Made by a program: the position numbers and the translations under genes
DNA from: Chitinivibrionales bacterium
GTDB taxonomy: Bacteria; Fibrobacterota; Chitinivibrionia; Chitinivibrionales; FEN-1185
Direction of reading: 5' to 3'
Assembly (NCBI GenBank): GCA_035516255.1
Contig: DATJAL010000052.1
Location: 1-64,000, forward strand
DNA length: 64,000 nucleotides
Notes under the pieces: model-generated
The model's database searches: none
Told to the model about the DNA's origin: nothing
What the model saw: only the letters and a program-made list of their open reading frames with translations
Part shown: positions 16,145 through 23,116 of the stretch, piece by piece
Layout: the number at the start of each line of letters is the position of its first letter
Position numbering within the stretch: position 1 is the first letter of the stretch

Positions 16145-17944
16145 ATGAAATCAAATAATTTTCATTCCATGGATACAATTCCCGTAAAACCGGTTGCCAT
16201 GGGAACATTTCTGCCCACGACGCGGGAAGAGATGCGGCAGCAGGGCATTGATCAACTCGACGTCATCATCGTGACGGGCGATGCCTACGTCGACCATCCG
16301 GCGTTCGGCGCTGCGCTGGTGGGGCGGTACCTCCAGTCGCTCGGAGCGACGGTCGGCATCATCGCGATGCCTGATGTCAAGAACCCTTCGGATTTCACCG
16401 CGCTCGGCGCGCCGCGGTATTTCTTCGGGGTCACCGCAGGAAACGTTGATTCCATGATTTCACTATTCACCGCGCAAAAGAAACCGCGCAGCGACGACCC
16501 GTATGTCCCCGGCGGTGCCGCGGGGCGCAGGCCAGCCCGCGCCACCATCGCCTTTTGCAATGCACTCAAGCAGGCGTTCAAGGGCGTGCCCATCGTGATC
16601 GGCGGGGTGGAGGCGAGCCTGCGCCGCATCGTCCATTACGATTTCTGGTCGGACACCATTCGGCAGCCGCTATTGCTCGACTGCAAGGCCGACATTCTCG
16701 CCTATGGGATGGCCGAGCATCCGCTGCGCTCCCTTGTCTCGCGCTGCAAACATGGAGAGCCGCTCGATAACGCGCTCGATATTCCCGGCACCGCCGTGCG
16801 CCTGGGACAGGCGCAGCTCCAACAGGTTCTTTCAGATCCTCGGCAACGTTTCGTACGGCTCCCGTCGTACGACGAGATCCTGAAATCGCGGGCCGCATTT
16901 TCCCGAATGACAAGGCTGTTCTACGAAAACCCCGAGTCGGCATTTCTCCAGGAATGCGGCACGCTCGCCGTGCTGGTCAACAAACCGGCCGAGCCGCTCA
17001 CCCAGGGCGAGATCGACCGCGTGTACGAGCTGCCGTTCACCTATCATCCGCACCCGTCGTATACGCGAGCGATTCCAGCCTACGAGCAGATAAAGGATTC
17101 GGTCACCGTGGTGCGCGGCTGCTTTGGCGGGTGCAACTTTTGCGGCCTGGGCGCGCACCAGGGGAAAACCATGCAGAGCAGGTCAAAGGAATCGGTGGTG
17201 CGGGAGATCAGGCGGCGGGCGATGATTCCCGGATGGAAAGGGATCGTTTCGGACCTCGGCGGCCCCACGGCAAACATGTACGGCCTCTTCTGCAGGCGGC
17301 CGAAGGACGGAAAACCCTGCGGCCGGAGGAGCTGCCTTTCGCCCGCAGCATGCGGCTATCTGCAGACGAGCCAGGCCGCATTCGCCGACCTCATCCGCAC
17401 GGTGTGCGGGCTTGACATGGTGAAACACGTGTCGATCAACTCGGGCGTGCGCATGGACCTCGCGCTTCTGTGGCCCGAGATCATCGAGGTGGTGGCGAAA
17501 AAAGCAACCGGCGGCCAGCTCTCGGTGGCGCCTGAGCACCTTGCGCGGCACGCGCTGCGGGCCATGGGCAAACCCGAAGAGACGGGATGGCAGCGTTTCG
17601 AAGAACTTTTTTCGGCCGCAAGCAGCCGGGCTGGCAAGCAGCAGTACCTTGTGCCGTATTTCATCGCCGGCCATCCGGGAAGCACGATCGACGACGCGCG
17701 CGAGCTCGGCCAGTATCTCAAGCGCAGGGGCATAAAGGCGCGCAACGTGCAGGAATACATCCCCATTCCCATGACCGTGTCGTGCTCCGTATATGCCACG
17801 GGCGAGGACCCGTTTACCGGCAAGCCGGTGCCGGTTTCCTATAAGTTAAGCGATGTGCGGCGGCAGAAGGATCTCATCATGTGGTGGCAGACGCCGGAGC
17901 AGCCCCGGCACCCCCGCAGGCAACTCGGGGGCTTCCGCCGATGA
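16145..17944 (+). CDS. ygiQ: YgiQ-family radical SAM protein
   Basis: 599 residues, the usual length. The N-terminal domain begins with PTTREEMRQQGIDQLDVIIV and DAYVDHPAFGAAL, characteristic of YgiQ. The radical SAM cluster motif is VRGCFGGCNFCGLGAHQG (CxxxCxxC) near residue 325. LGGPTANMYG and a later Cys-rich run (CRRPKDGKPCGRRSCLSP) are also family marks. The enzyme uses a 4Fe-4S cluster and S-adenosylmethionine; its substrate is unknown to me. Start at 16145 or the ATG at 16169; neither has a good ribosome site. It overlaps the next radical-SAM gene by 4 bases, so the two are coupled. Confidence 0.9.
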   Translation: MKSNNFHSMDTIPVKPVAMGTFLPTTREEMRQQGIDQLDVIIVTGDAYVDHPAFGAALVGRYLQSLGATVGIIAMPDVKNPSDFTALGAPRYFFGVTAGNVDSMISLFTAQKKPRSDDPYVPGGAAGRRPARATIAFCNALKQAFKGVPIVIGGVEASLRRIVHYDFWSDTIRQPLLLDCKADILAYGMAEHPLRSLVSRCKHGEPLDNALDIPGTAVRLGQAQLQQVLSDPRQRFVRLPSYDEILKSRAAFSRMTRLFYENPESAFLQECGTLAVLVNKPAEPLTQGEIDRVYELPFTYHPHPSYTRAIPAYEQIKDSVTVVRGCFGGCNFCGLGAHQGKTMQSRSKESVVREIRRRAMIPGWKGIVSDLGGPTANMYGLFCRRPKDGKPCGRRSCLSPAACGYLQTSQAAFADLIRTVCGLDMVKHVSINSGVRMDLALLWPEIIEVVAKKATGGQLSVAPEHLARHALRAMGKPEETGWQRFEELFSAASSRAGKQQYLVPYFIAGHPGSTIDDARELGQYLKRRGIKARNVQEYIPIPMTVSCSVYATGEDPFTGKPVPVSYKLSDVRRQKDLIMWWQTPEQPRHPRRQLGGFRR

Positions 17945-18942
17945 ATGACGCGATTGCGGGCCAACCGCCCCTAAAGCAACGAAACACGATTTCACACCAC
18001 GTGCAAAAAGGCGAATTCTGGAAACCCTGTCCGGGAACGACCGCAGGTTATTTGTGCTGCGGCTACCAGATTCTCACCCCGCTCACCGGCTGCGGCATGT
18101 ACTGCCGGTACTGCGTGCTCCAGTCCTACCTGGAAAACCAGTGCCAGGTCGTATTTGACAATTTCTCCGACCTTGAAAAGGAGGTCAGGGATAAGCTTTC
18201 CCGCCAAAAAGGCGTTGTCCGTTTCGGCACCGGCGAGTTCGGCGACAGCCTGTATCTCGAGGACAAACTTCACTTTTGCGAAAAAATTGCAGGCTTGCTT
18301 GATCCCTTTCCCAATGCGCTTGTTGAGTTCAAGACAAAAAGCGCAAACGTTGGCGGCCTTGCGGGAATAAAAAATCCGCAAAAGGTCGTTGTCGGATTTT
18401 CAATGAACACGCCGCGCATGATTTCCCTGTTCGAGCGTGGAACTGCGTCACTTGACGAACGGCTCAAAGTAGCAAAGCAATGCCTCGGCATGGGGTTCTG
18501 GGTCGCGTTCCACTTCGACCCGATGTTCTGGTACCCCGCATGGGAAAAGGAATACCGCGGCGTCGTTTCCGAACTATTGTCAACGGTTGCCGATTCGTCA
18601 AGAATAGCGTGGTGGAGCATGGGCGGATTCCGTTCGCCCGCCGCGCTCAAGGCGCTGCTGAAAAAAACGAACAACCACCTGCCGCTGTACGCCATGGGCG
18701 AGCTGGTGCAGGGCGAAGACGGCAAGGTCCGGTATTTCAGGCCGGTGCGGGTCGAGTTCTATTCCGCTCTCCGCGACGAAGTAGAAAAGCATGACCCGGC
18801 AATTCCGCTTTATTTATGCATGGAGAGTCCGGAGGTGTGGGAGGAGTCGGGGATGATGGGGCGAATACCGCGCGGGCTGGTGCGGTATTTGGATGCGAGG
18901 GCGGAGAAAATGCTGGGAATAGTAAGGCATCCGCCCGCATAG
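17941..18942 (+). CDS. Radical SAM protein related to spore photoproduct lyase (SplB-like)
   Basis: The ATG at 17941 overlaps the ygiQ stop (ATGA). The 333-residue product has the cluster motif TGCGMYCRYCVLQSYL near residue 50, with the CxxxCxxC spacing and the 'YC.LQ' continuation typical of spore photoproduct lyases. FGTGEFGDSLYLED and VVGFSMNTPRMISLFERGT, then the C-terminal YLCMESPEVWEES, fit the same family. Real SplB repairs the spore thymine dimer. No spore genes are in view, so a related DNA or RNA repair or modification job is possible. The last codons overlap a perfect 18-bp palindrome. Confidence 0.8.
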   Translation: MNDAIAGQPPLKQRNTISHHVQKGEFWKPCPGTTAGYLCCGYQILTPLTGCGMYCRYCVLQSYLENQCQVVFDNFSDLEKEVRDKLSRQKGVVRFGTGEFGDSLYLEDKLHFCEKIAGLLDPFPNALVEFKTKSANVGGLAGIKNPQKVVVGFSMNTPRMISLFERGTASLDERLKVAKQCLGMGFWVAFHFDPMFWYPAWEKEYRGVVSELLSTVADSSRIAWWSMGGFRSPAALKALLKKTNNHLPLYAMGELVQGEDGKVRYFRPVRVEFYSALRDEVEKHDPAIPLYLCMESPEVWEESGMMGRIPRGLVRYLDARAEKMLGIVRHPPA

Positions 18943-18959
18943 CGGGCGGATGCCTTACT
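18921..18959. repeat. Perfect 18-bp palindrome across a stop codon
   Basis: AGTAAGGCATCCGCCCGC (18921-18938) and its exact inverse (18942-18959) flank the three bases ATA. The TAG stop of the SplB-like gene lies inside (18940-18942). No T run follows on either strand, so it does not look like a standard Rho-independent terminator. Confidence 0.75.
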
Positions 18960-19100: not shown

Positions 19101-19119
19101 ACGGCGAAATCGATTTCGT
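19101..19119. repeat. 19-bp direct repeat, left copy (contains the palindrome CGAAATCGATTTCG)
   Basis: ACGGCGAAATCGATTTCGT occurs here and again at 21234-21252 in the same orientation. The pair brackets the HNH, small-protein and methyltransferase genes. The 14-bp core is a perfect palindrome. Confidence 0.65.
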
Positions 19120-20374: not shown

Positions 20375-21205
20375 ATGCCTGAAAAACTAAAAATCTCCCT
20401 TGGCGAAGTACAGAAGACGCTTTTACTGCCCCTCTGGGGCCGCGCGCTGGAAACAAAAAGCCAAAACCCGCTCATCCGCGACCCCATGGCCTGCGAGATC
20501 GTGGGCCGACTGGATTTCGACTTCGACGACATGACCCGCCGCGTGCCCATGCAACTGCGGATCAACAGCGCTATCCGCGCGTTTCATTTCGACGCCGCGC
20601 TTCGGCAGTTCATCGCCGAATGTCCGGACGCGACCGTGGTGAACATCGGCGCGGGGCTCGACACCACGTTTTTCCGCGTTGACAATGGGAAAATATTTTG
20701 GTACGATCTTGACCTGCCCGACACCATGGCCCTTCGGCGCGGCCTGATACCGGAAGGGGAGCGCAACAGGTGTATTGTGAAATCGGTCTTTGACCGTGCC
20801 TGGTTCAACGACGTCGCGGTGCGGCGCTCAAAGGTCTTTTTCATGGCAGCCGGGGTCTTCTTTTACCTTAAGGAAGACGATATCCGTCGATTGTTTCTCG
20901 ACCTCATCGACGAATTCCCCGGCAGCCAGATCATGTTCGAGGCGTATTCGAAGTTCATGCTGCGCATCAGGAACCGCACCATAAAAAAGCAGCGGGACGC
21001 CTCGCCGTTTCTCGCGGCCGCTCAGTGGGCGGCGGGCTCCAGCGCGCCAATTGCGAAATGGAGTCCCCGCATAAAAGTTATCGATGATTTTCCGTATTAT
21101 TCCAGGGTCGACATGGCACGGCACTGGGACAAAAAACTCCTGTTTCCGCTCCGGGTGATACATTTTCTCAACGGGGTGAGAATGGTGCGCCTGGGGTTGG
21201 GCTGA
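20375..21205 (+). CDS. PPM1/TCMP-type (leucine carboxyl methyltransferase-like) O-methyltransferase
   Basis: 276 residues. The SAM-binding strand and loop read TVVNIGAGLDTTFFRVD, and the acidic second strand is WYDLDLPDTMALRRGLIP; this pair defines the LCM/TCMP methyltransferase family, together with FFMAAGVFFYLKEDDI. Members methylate small-molecule hydroxyl or carboxyl groups, often in secondary metabolism; substrate here is unknown. I use the ATG at 20375 rather than a TTG at 20360. It has its own promoter. With the HNH gene and the 70-residue gene it lies inside a segment bounded by 19-bp direct repeats. Confidence 0.82.
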   Translation: MPEKLKISLGEVQKTLLLPLWGRALETKSQNPLIRDPMACEIVGRLDFDFDDMTRRVPMQLRINSAIRAFHFDAALRQFIAECPDATVVNIGAGLDTTFFRVDNGKIFWYDLDLPDTMALRRGLIPEGERNRCIVKSVFDRAWFNDVAVRRSKVFFMAAGVFFYLKEDDIRRLFLDLIDEFPGSQIMFEAYSKFMLRIRNRTIKKQRDASPFLAAAQWAAGSSAPIAKWSPRIKVIDDFPYYSRVDMARHWDKKLLFPLRVIHFLNGVRMVRLGLG

Positions 21206-21233: not shown

Positions 21234-21252
21234 ACGGCGAAATCGATTTCGT
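21234..21252. repeat. 19-bp direct repeat, right copy
   Basis: Exact second copy of ACGGCGAAATCGATTTCGT, 2,133 bases after the left copy at 19101-19119, with different bases immediately outside on both sides. Confidence 0.65.
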
Positions 21253-21305
21253 CGACTTTTAATAAGTTCAGATATATAATAACTCATGTAAATATGAAAC
21301 TTGCT

Positions 21306-21333
21306 AAAAAGGGAAACCGTACTCAGACGGTTT
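21306..21333 (-). terminator. Rho-independent terminator of the candidate small RNA
   Basis: Leftward: AAACCGT, loop CTGAGT, ACGGTTT, then CCCTTTTT. A clean 7-bp stem followed by a T run ends the transcript predicted from the promoter at 21464-21492. Confidence 0.75.
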
Positions 21334-21457
21334 GCACAAAGTTGCAATAGAGCCTCATGGGAGCTGTTTATCCGCATAAAAGCGGGAGGCGGCAACCTCT
21401 GCTAGAAGAACTGCCACCCCCCTGGGCGTTGCACATGTAGGGCATATGCAGACGCTT
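21306..21457 (-). ncRNA. Candidate structured small RNA of about 150 nt
   Basis: No open frame explains this stretch, yet the minus strand has a full transcription unit: a promoter at 21464-21492, a predicted start near 21457 and a Rho-independent terminator at 21306-21333. Inside, GGGGGGTGGCA and TGCCGCCTCCC (21412-21422 and 21384-21394 on the + strand) can pair over 11 bases with two G-U pairs. An inner CTTCT/AGAGG stem around AGC extends that hairpin, and a smaller CCGC/GCGG hairpin follows. I could not match it to 6S, SRP, tmRNA, RNase P or a riboswitch by eye. Confidence 0.5.
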
Positions 21458-21463
21458 GAGTAT

Positions 21464-21492
21464 ATTATACTGCAAATTACCCGCCAATTCAA
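21464..21492 (-). promoter_or_regulatory. Sigma70-type promoter of the candidate small RNA
   Basis: On the minus strand, TTGAAT (21487-21492), a 17-base spacer and a perfect TATAAT (21464-21469). No protein gene lies downstream on this strand before the terminator. Confidence 0.65.
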
Positions 21493-21656
21493 GTCTCCTA
21501 AGATGGCCTATCACGGCACAGGTAAAATCCGTTTTTAACAAGGATAGGTAAAATTGAGAAATTTAGGAACGTAGTACGGTTTTTTGGTTATGGACTTTCA
21601 AAGCGCATCGTTTTCAATAAAAATCTTTTTTCCCGGGGTTGGAAGGACGCATTAAA

Positions 21657-21823: not shown

Positions 21824-23116
21824 TCAATTCGAATTAATCGAAAAATCCGTGAACTTGAACACCGCGTTCGTGCTGTTCGTCGAAACGATTTCCACGCCGA
21901 AACACAATTGCCCCAGCGTCGAATTCGCCGCGAGCCATCCCTTTGACATTGTCCACTTGAAGATTGCGAGCACGTCGATGGTGCCCGACGTGAACACGGC
22001 CGTTGGCACGAAGGCGATATAACCGTTGCTTGACGTTTTCCATACATTGTAGAGCCGGCCGCCGACAGTCACCGTATCCGCCTTGCTGCCTGACGGCACC
22101 TGGCCGTAGTTCTCGGTCCAGATCATGAACTCGGTGCACCCGGGCGTTGCGACGCCGTTGGTCCAGATGTCGTACGCCACGTCGTAGATGCCCACGTGCG
22201 GGCTCGCGGCCGCGAACGAGCTCGTGAGGGAATTGAACGAGCTGATCGCCACGTTGCTGTAGTCCATGTGGACGTTCGGATACGTCTTGACCGCGCCGTC
22301 GCCGCTGTTGTTGTTCATGTTGCCGACCACGTACCAATTGTGGTACGAGCACGCGTACAGGGTTTCGGCGCACGCATAGGAGCCGCAGTTCCACATATTG
22401 TTGTGGACATAATAGCCGCCGTTGTTCCAGCCGCCGTTCGGGTCGCCGGTCTTGAACGCGGGGTTCGTGCATGCGGCGACCAGGGAAATGACGCACACCT
22501 GGTTTACAAGCGAATAGGAGGAAATGAACTTCTTGAACGTGGTATACCCGGGTTTTGTTGCGGTAAGCGTGTCGGCAACGGCACTTATTTTATCAAGCGA
22601 GGGTCCTTGCGGCCCGGCAGGCGTCCGGATTCCGGTCCCGGAGGCCAAGGAGCCGTACAGGGACATTTTAAAAAGTTCCGTCCAATCGCCGATCCCAAGT
22701 TTGACAAGGTACACTCCCGCCCGCAGCTGCCGCGACGGGAGCACAAGCGAATATGCGCCTCTGTCAAGCATCCGGTCCAGCGCCTGGGAAACGAGCCGGC
22801 CGTCCATGGAATAGACGGCGATGTTCACCGCAGCGGGGTTGGGGACAAAAAAATGCGCCGCGCCGCCTGCGATAAATGCGGAGATTGAATTCCCGTGCGG
22901 CCGCATTGAACCGATAACGGAGCTCTTTACCAGCGCGAATATGCCGTTTGCGTTTGAGGTGGACGAGACGCCGGCGCTCACCAGGCTCACGGTCGCGCCG
23001 GGGACGGCATTGTTCGAGTCGTCTACAACGGTGCCCGTGATGTTGATGTCCTGGCCTTGTGCGTGAAGTGCAGCCGCCGTAAGAAACGAGAATAGGATGG
23101 TTATTTTTTTGGTCAT
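21824..23116 (-). CDS. Secreted GH12-family endoglucanase with CarboxypepD_reg-like and internal sorting-like modules
   Basis: 430 residues: signal peptide (about 1-21), a CarboxypepD_reg-like domain starting INITGTVVDDSNNAVPGATV, then a sorting-tail-like module with NIAVYSMDGRLVSQ at about 95-155. The catalytic domain starts near residue 220. GH12 marks are NGGYYVHNNMWNCGSY, DGAVKTYPNV, the nucleophile Glu329 in TEFMIWTENYG and the acid/base Glu409 in CFGVEIVST. The 80-residue distance between the two Glu is close to that in fungal Cel12A. Known GH12 enzymes retain configuration and cut beta-1,4-glucan or xyloglucan. It has its own promoter and probably works outside the cell on plant polysaccharide. 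Confidence 0.85.
   Translation of the reverse strand: MTKKITILFSFLTAAALHAQGQDINITGTVVDDSNNAVPGATVSLVSAGVSSTSNANGIFALVKSSVIGSMRPHGNSISAFIAGGAAHFFVPNPAAVNIAVYSMDGRLVSQALDRMLDRGAYSLVLPSRQLRAGVYLVKLGIGDWTELFKMSLYGSLASGTGIRTPAGPQGPSLDKISAVADTLTATKPGYTTFKKFISSYSLVNQVCVISLVAACTNPAFKTGDPNGGWNNGGYYVHNNMWNCGSYACAETLYACSYHNWYVVGNMNNNSGDGAVKTYPNVHMDYSNVAISSFNSLTSSFAAASPHVGIYDVAYDIWTNGVATPGCTEFMIWTENYGQVPSGSKADTVTVGGRLYNVWKTSSNGYIAFVPTAVFTSGTIDVLAIFKWTMSKGWLAANSTLGQLCFGVEIVSTNSTNAVFKFTDFSINSN

Follow-up and report, generated by a model that had tools for sequence, protein, structure and literature searches.

A candidate three-copy small RNA family in a Chitinivibrionales genome

Features of the intergenic locus

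The candidate sRNA locus lies in intergenic DNA on the minus strand, at positions 21306-21492 of the window (by which we mean the whole 64,000-nucleotide stretch of DNA that was analysed). Its upstream neighbour on the same strand is a gene for a GH12-type secreted protein (21824-23116, with its 3′ end at 21824). On its 3′ side a gene for an LCM-type methyltransferase runs convergently and ends at 21205, in agreement with the first-pass annotation, which had noted that no gene follows the candidate. The 3′-side gene is likewise convergent at the two paralogous loci described below, and a co-directional downstream gene is present at none of the three; this arrangement argues against a leader or riboswitch. 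The 5′-side genes encode secreted-type proteins at every copy (the GH12-like protein in the window, a CE2/GDSL esterase-like protein at L022 3803-5185, and an unassigned lipoprotein-like protein at L021 584-1726 beside the third copy), a pattern that, with n = 3 only, may be due to chance.

Promoter boxes of the form TTGAAT-17-TATAAT are present on the minus strand just as first described (21492-21464), and the strong hairpins claimed for the transcript are present as well: the predicted RNA (about 150 nt, from approximately 21457 to 21306, minus strand) is more stable than 200 of 200 shuffled sequences (z −3.85). The terminator, which had been called clean, fares less well: the hairpin and a five-T run reaching 21306 do exist, but they are no better than regional chance and are confined to the window copy. 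Within the surrounding 2.9 kb there are six promoter-like sites where 2.2 (sd 1.4) were expected and six terminator-like sites where 4.4 (sd 2.0) were expected, so that neither signal is convincing by itself; the locus rises above chance through the position of the promoter and both hairpins, which are retained in two paralogues. Contrary to the initial statement that the transcript contains no coding frame, an ATG-initiated frame, 25 codons long, runs across the hairpin sequences. The coordinates of all of these features are collected in Table 1.

Table 1. Features of the candidate sRNA locus, in window coordinates
Feature	Position	Strand	Remarks
−35 box TTGAAT	21487-21492	minus	TTGAA invariant in all three copies
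−10 box TATAAT	21464-21469	minus	17-nt spacer from the −35 box
Hairpin 1, loop CCCUA	21426-21455	minus	holds the 20-nt ATGCCCTACATGTGCAACGC, identical in all three copies
Hairpin 2, 12 + 5 bp	21384-21422	minus	pairing retained in paralogues
Copy-specific 3′ part	21311-21383	minus	without paralogous sequence
Terminator-like hairpin AAACCGTCTGAGTACGGTTT (21333-21314), then CCC and TTTTT	21306-21333	minus	predicted 3′ end
Family-conserved unit (promoter region and hairpins 1 and 2)	21369-21500	minus	two same-genome paralogues
25-codon ATG frame over the hairpins	21368-21445	minus	coding doubtful

Several other elements were observed nearby. Among the six promoter-like sites is a second one that, like the candidate's own promoter, scores 10/12; it lies on the plus strand (21252-21280, TCGACT-17-TATAAT) and points into the same intergenic region from the opposite side. 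A 39-bp inverted repeat that is 92% self-complementary (18921-18959) adjoins the end of the reading frame at 17881-18942. The palindrome GAAATCGATTTCG, found near two of the copies, was set aside as a genome-wide intergenic repeat outside the conserved unit. Palindromes close to GGCGAAATCGATTTCGTCG occur in intergenic DNA at 21235-21254 and 19105-19118 of the window and at C1:29201, C14:42300, C16:106264, and C2:171368; the palindrome's 13-mer is found seven times genome-wide, once in what seems to be coding sequence, against none for the reversed control, and GGCGAAATCGATTTCGTCG-like palindromes are possibly terminators or REP-like repeats.

Two paralogues and the evidence for a conserved fold

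Two paralogues of the locus lie elsewhere in the genome, each on a separate contig (C47 1958-2090, plus strand, and C2 171477-171609, minus strand), and are 79-81% identical to the window copy over approximately 117 bp. The similarity begins just upstream of the −35 box and stops at the end of hairpin 2, leaving the 3′ part outside. Both paralogues carry promoter-like boxes at the same position (TTGAAA-17-GATGAT and TTGAAT-18-TAAAAT), and ATGCCCTACATGTGCAACGC has no further site in the genome at up to three mismatches. Neither paralogue has a terminator immediately 3′ of hairpin 2. For the C2 copy (L022, approximately 3492-3437, minus strand), a stretch 3′ of hairpin 2, TGCCGGGAGTC, can by eye be paired with GACTCCCGCA, the 3′ arm of that hairpin, which would give an alternative fold. 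Near the copies the three neighbourhoods have no gene family in common; the one protein match between them is weak and lies several kb off.

The three copies fold better than shuffled sequences on the transcript strand (z −5.1 for the 76-nt two-hairpin core of the window, −5.7 and −2.1 for the others, the fold of the C2 copy being only modestly better than its shuffles), against z −1.95, −1.0, and −0.65 on the opposite strand. Substitutions among the copies retain nearly all base pairs, often by way of G-U. Placed on a consensus structure, they break 0 and 1 pairs where random placement breaks 5.1 and 5.9 (p = 0.0007 and 0.003). Because that consensus was derived from the tested sequences themselves, the pairing test was rerun with the window's own fold and with substitution types kept, giving 1 and 2 broken pairs where 3.9 and 5.2 were expected (p = 0.015 each); all of these values come from three related sequences, in two comparisons that have one reference in common. 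Only one pair has changed on both sides, so the substitutions agree with the fold without amounting to rich covariation. Five G-U pairs and no A-C pairs are present in each of the three copies, and this, together with the strand-specific folding, favours an RNA of the predicted strand over a DNA hairpin. Divergence rates are similar in the promoter and RNA parts, so that recent duplication alone accounts for part of the conservation. Taken at the level of sequence comparison, strand-specific, pair-preserving copies support a conserved RNA read from the minus strand of the window. The stand-alone structured RNA of the first-pass annotation thereby gains paralogue pairing and a strand-specific fold, and is weakened by a terminator in one copy only and by the short frame.

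Searches for related sequences

Searches against Rfam 15, at the gathering threshold and at E 10, returned nothing credible for the window copy or for either paralogue, in line with the earlier remark that the RNA fits neither 6S, SRP, tmRNA, RNase P nor a familiar riboswitch. Across 167 genomes of the phylum, our covariance models R1 and R2 recovered only the three copies of the genome itself; the other 166 include a same-genus genome, 98% complete, which gave no match. Matches at order level with E 0.02-0.5 per genome were taken as chance. An exact 18-mer scan of GTDB contigs gave one match, inside a dehydrogenase-like reading frame, which we likewise attribute to chance. The same 18-mer was absent from IMG/VR viral contigs, where a looser pattern had a single chance match in a coding stretch. 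As the GTDB and IMG/VR scans required near-exact sequence, relatives may exist elsewhere. Phages yielded only weak 41-bp matches to the promoter region, and plasmids no match. In terms of synteny, the LCM neighbour gene was not found in comparison genomes G001 or G002, and the S41 gene of the C2 locus has, in G001, a different next gene and no copy beside it. A lack of conservation in relatives, which the first-pass annotation had named as a refuting outcome, is what the other species searched show, but it does not hold for the two same-genome paralogues, in which pairing is retained.

Interpretation and comparison with known RNAs

We lean toward the reading that the locus is a stand-alone sRNA gene belonging to a three-member family, so far confined to this species. 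Multicopy trans-acting sRNAs occur as at least two stand-alone paralogues in a genome, as is the case here; an intrinsic terminator for each copy, which is usual for that class without being strictly defining, is not found, and the absence of a common terminator from the paralogues is the main weakness of the sRNA reading.

A rather unlikely account of the same data is that the locus is a MITE-like element, a short non-autonomous stretch of mobile or repetitive DNA with hairpins that are incidentally transcribed or used in transposition. Such an element would suit the dispersal of three copies of approximately 130 bp through one genome and their absence from the same-genus genome, the unrelated flanks of the three copies, and the large serine recombinase gene that lies approximately 250 bp from one of them. 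However, the recombinase is near that copy only, inspection by eye revealed neither terminal inverted repeats nor target duplications, the copies are approximately 20% diverged, and strand-specific, G-U-rich pairing suits RNA better than a DNA hairpin.

More doubtful still is a decaying duplicate of a longer gene or leader, in which the fold and promoter match would be functionless remnants. The unconserved 3′ part, the terminator lacking in two copies, and the absence of a copy from every relative searched would fit such decay, but pair-keeping substitutions and 20 invariant nucleotides persist despite approximately 20% divergence elsewhere.

A short-peptide gene (MPYMCNAxGxGSSSxRGC) with a structured mRNA, or a dual-function RNA, has little probability in our judgment, and translation of the 25-codon frame is possible though not likely. 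The ATG at 21445 opens MPYMCNAQGGGSSSSRGCRLPLLCG, the stop ends at 21368, and the frame is open upstream to 21541. It is open in all three copies, and the differences between the window and C47 copies fall at codon positions one, two, and three in the numbers 0, 2, and 8 (8 of 10 in third positions), with p = 0.0096 for amino-acid changes, uncorrected and from one of 18 frame tests. The other two copy comparisons in those tests show no clear bias (p = 0.35 and 0.24), however, and the C2 frame stops after 18 codons. The leader of approximately 12 nt has no Shine-Dalgarno sequence, the start codon sits inside the stem of hairpin 1, and the first 20 nt of the frame are invariant with third positions included, which fits RNA constraint. 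Similarly improbable is a reading in which the lineage-restricted family reuses one invariant 5′ two-hairpin module with exchangeable 3′ ends that carry different specificities, the whole perhaps having spread as a small mobile RNA gene.

Returning to the sRNA reading, the family would be transcribed from its own sigma-70-type promoter, and hairpin 2 may protect the 5′ module. The putative recognition site is the C-containing loop of hairpin 1 (GCCCUAC), which is invariant and could base-pair with mRNAs at G-rich translation-initiation regions or bind a protein, and the unrelated 3′ parts might serve mainly as terminators or confer specificity on each sibling. On this reading the three copies form a lineage-restricted sRNA family that probably acts in trans through the invariant CCCUA loop. 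If transcribed, they would constitute an undescribed multicopy sRNA family, not in Rfam 15, and, being missing from the same-genus genome, an example of an sRNA that is rapidly gained or lost.

Among known RNAs, 6S RNA (RF00013) likewise stands alone, has a promoter of its own and measures 150-200 nt, but it folds into a single long rod interrupted by a central bubble, whereas the candidate forms two separate hairpins; 6S RNA was rejected for the locus, which lacks a rod structure and gave no match to the covariance model even at E 10. Elsewhere in the genome there is a weak 6S RNA candidate (L061, G000:C2:70336-70507), which scores 20.5 bits where the gathering threshold is 46.4. The protein-sequestering RNAs of the CsrB/Rsm type are also multicopy hairpin RNAs, but the GGA motif is missing from both loops that the candidate exposes (CCCUA in hairpin 1, and that of hairpin 2). 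LhrC1-5 of Listeria monocytogenes (PMC4132741) resemble the candidate in having several stand-alone copies per genome and stem-loops with C-containing loops that may bind Shine-Dalgarno sequences, a capacity that is putative here. They differ in being virtually identical to one another, where the present copies are approximately 80% identical, and in that the 3′ ends here are unrelated and have no common terminator loop; we claim no sequence similarity. LhrC binds a Shine-Dalgarno region via CU-rich motifs in its loops (PMC4132741), and it is by analogy with such multicopy sRNAs that we propose the CCCUA loop as the binding site.
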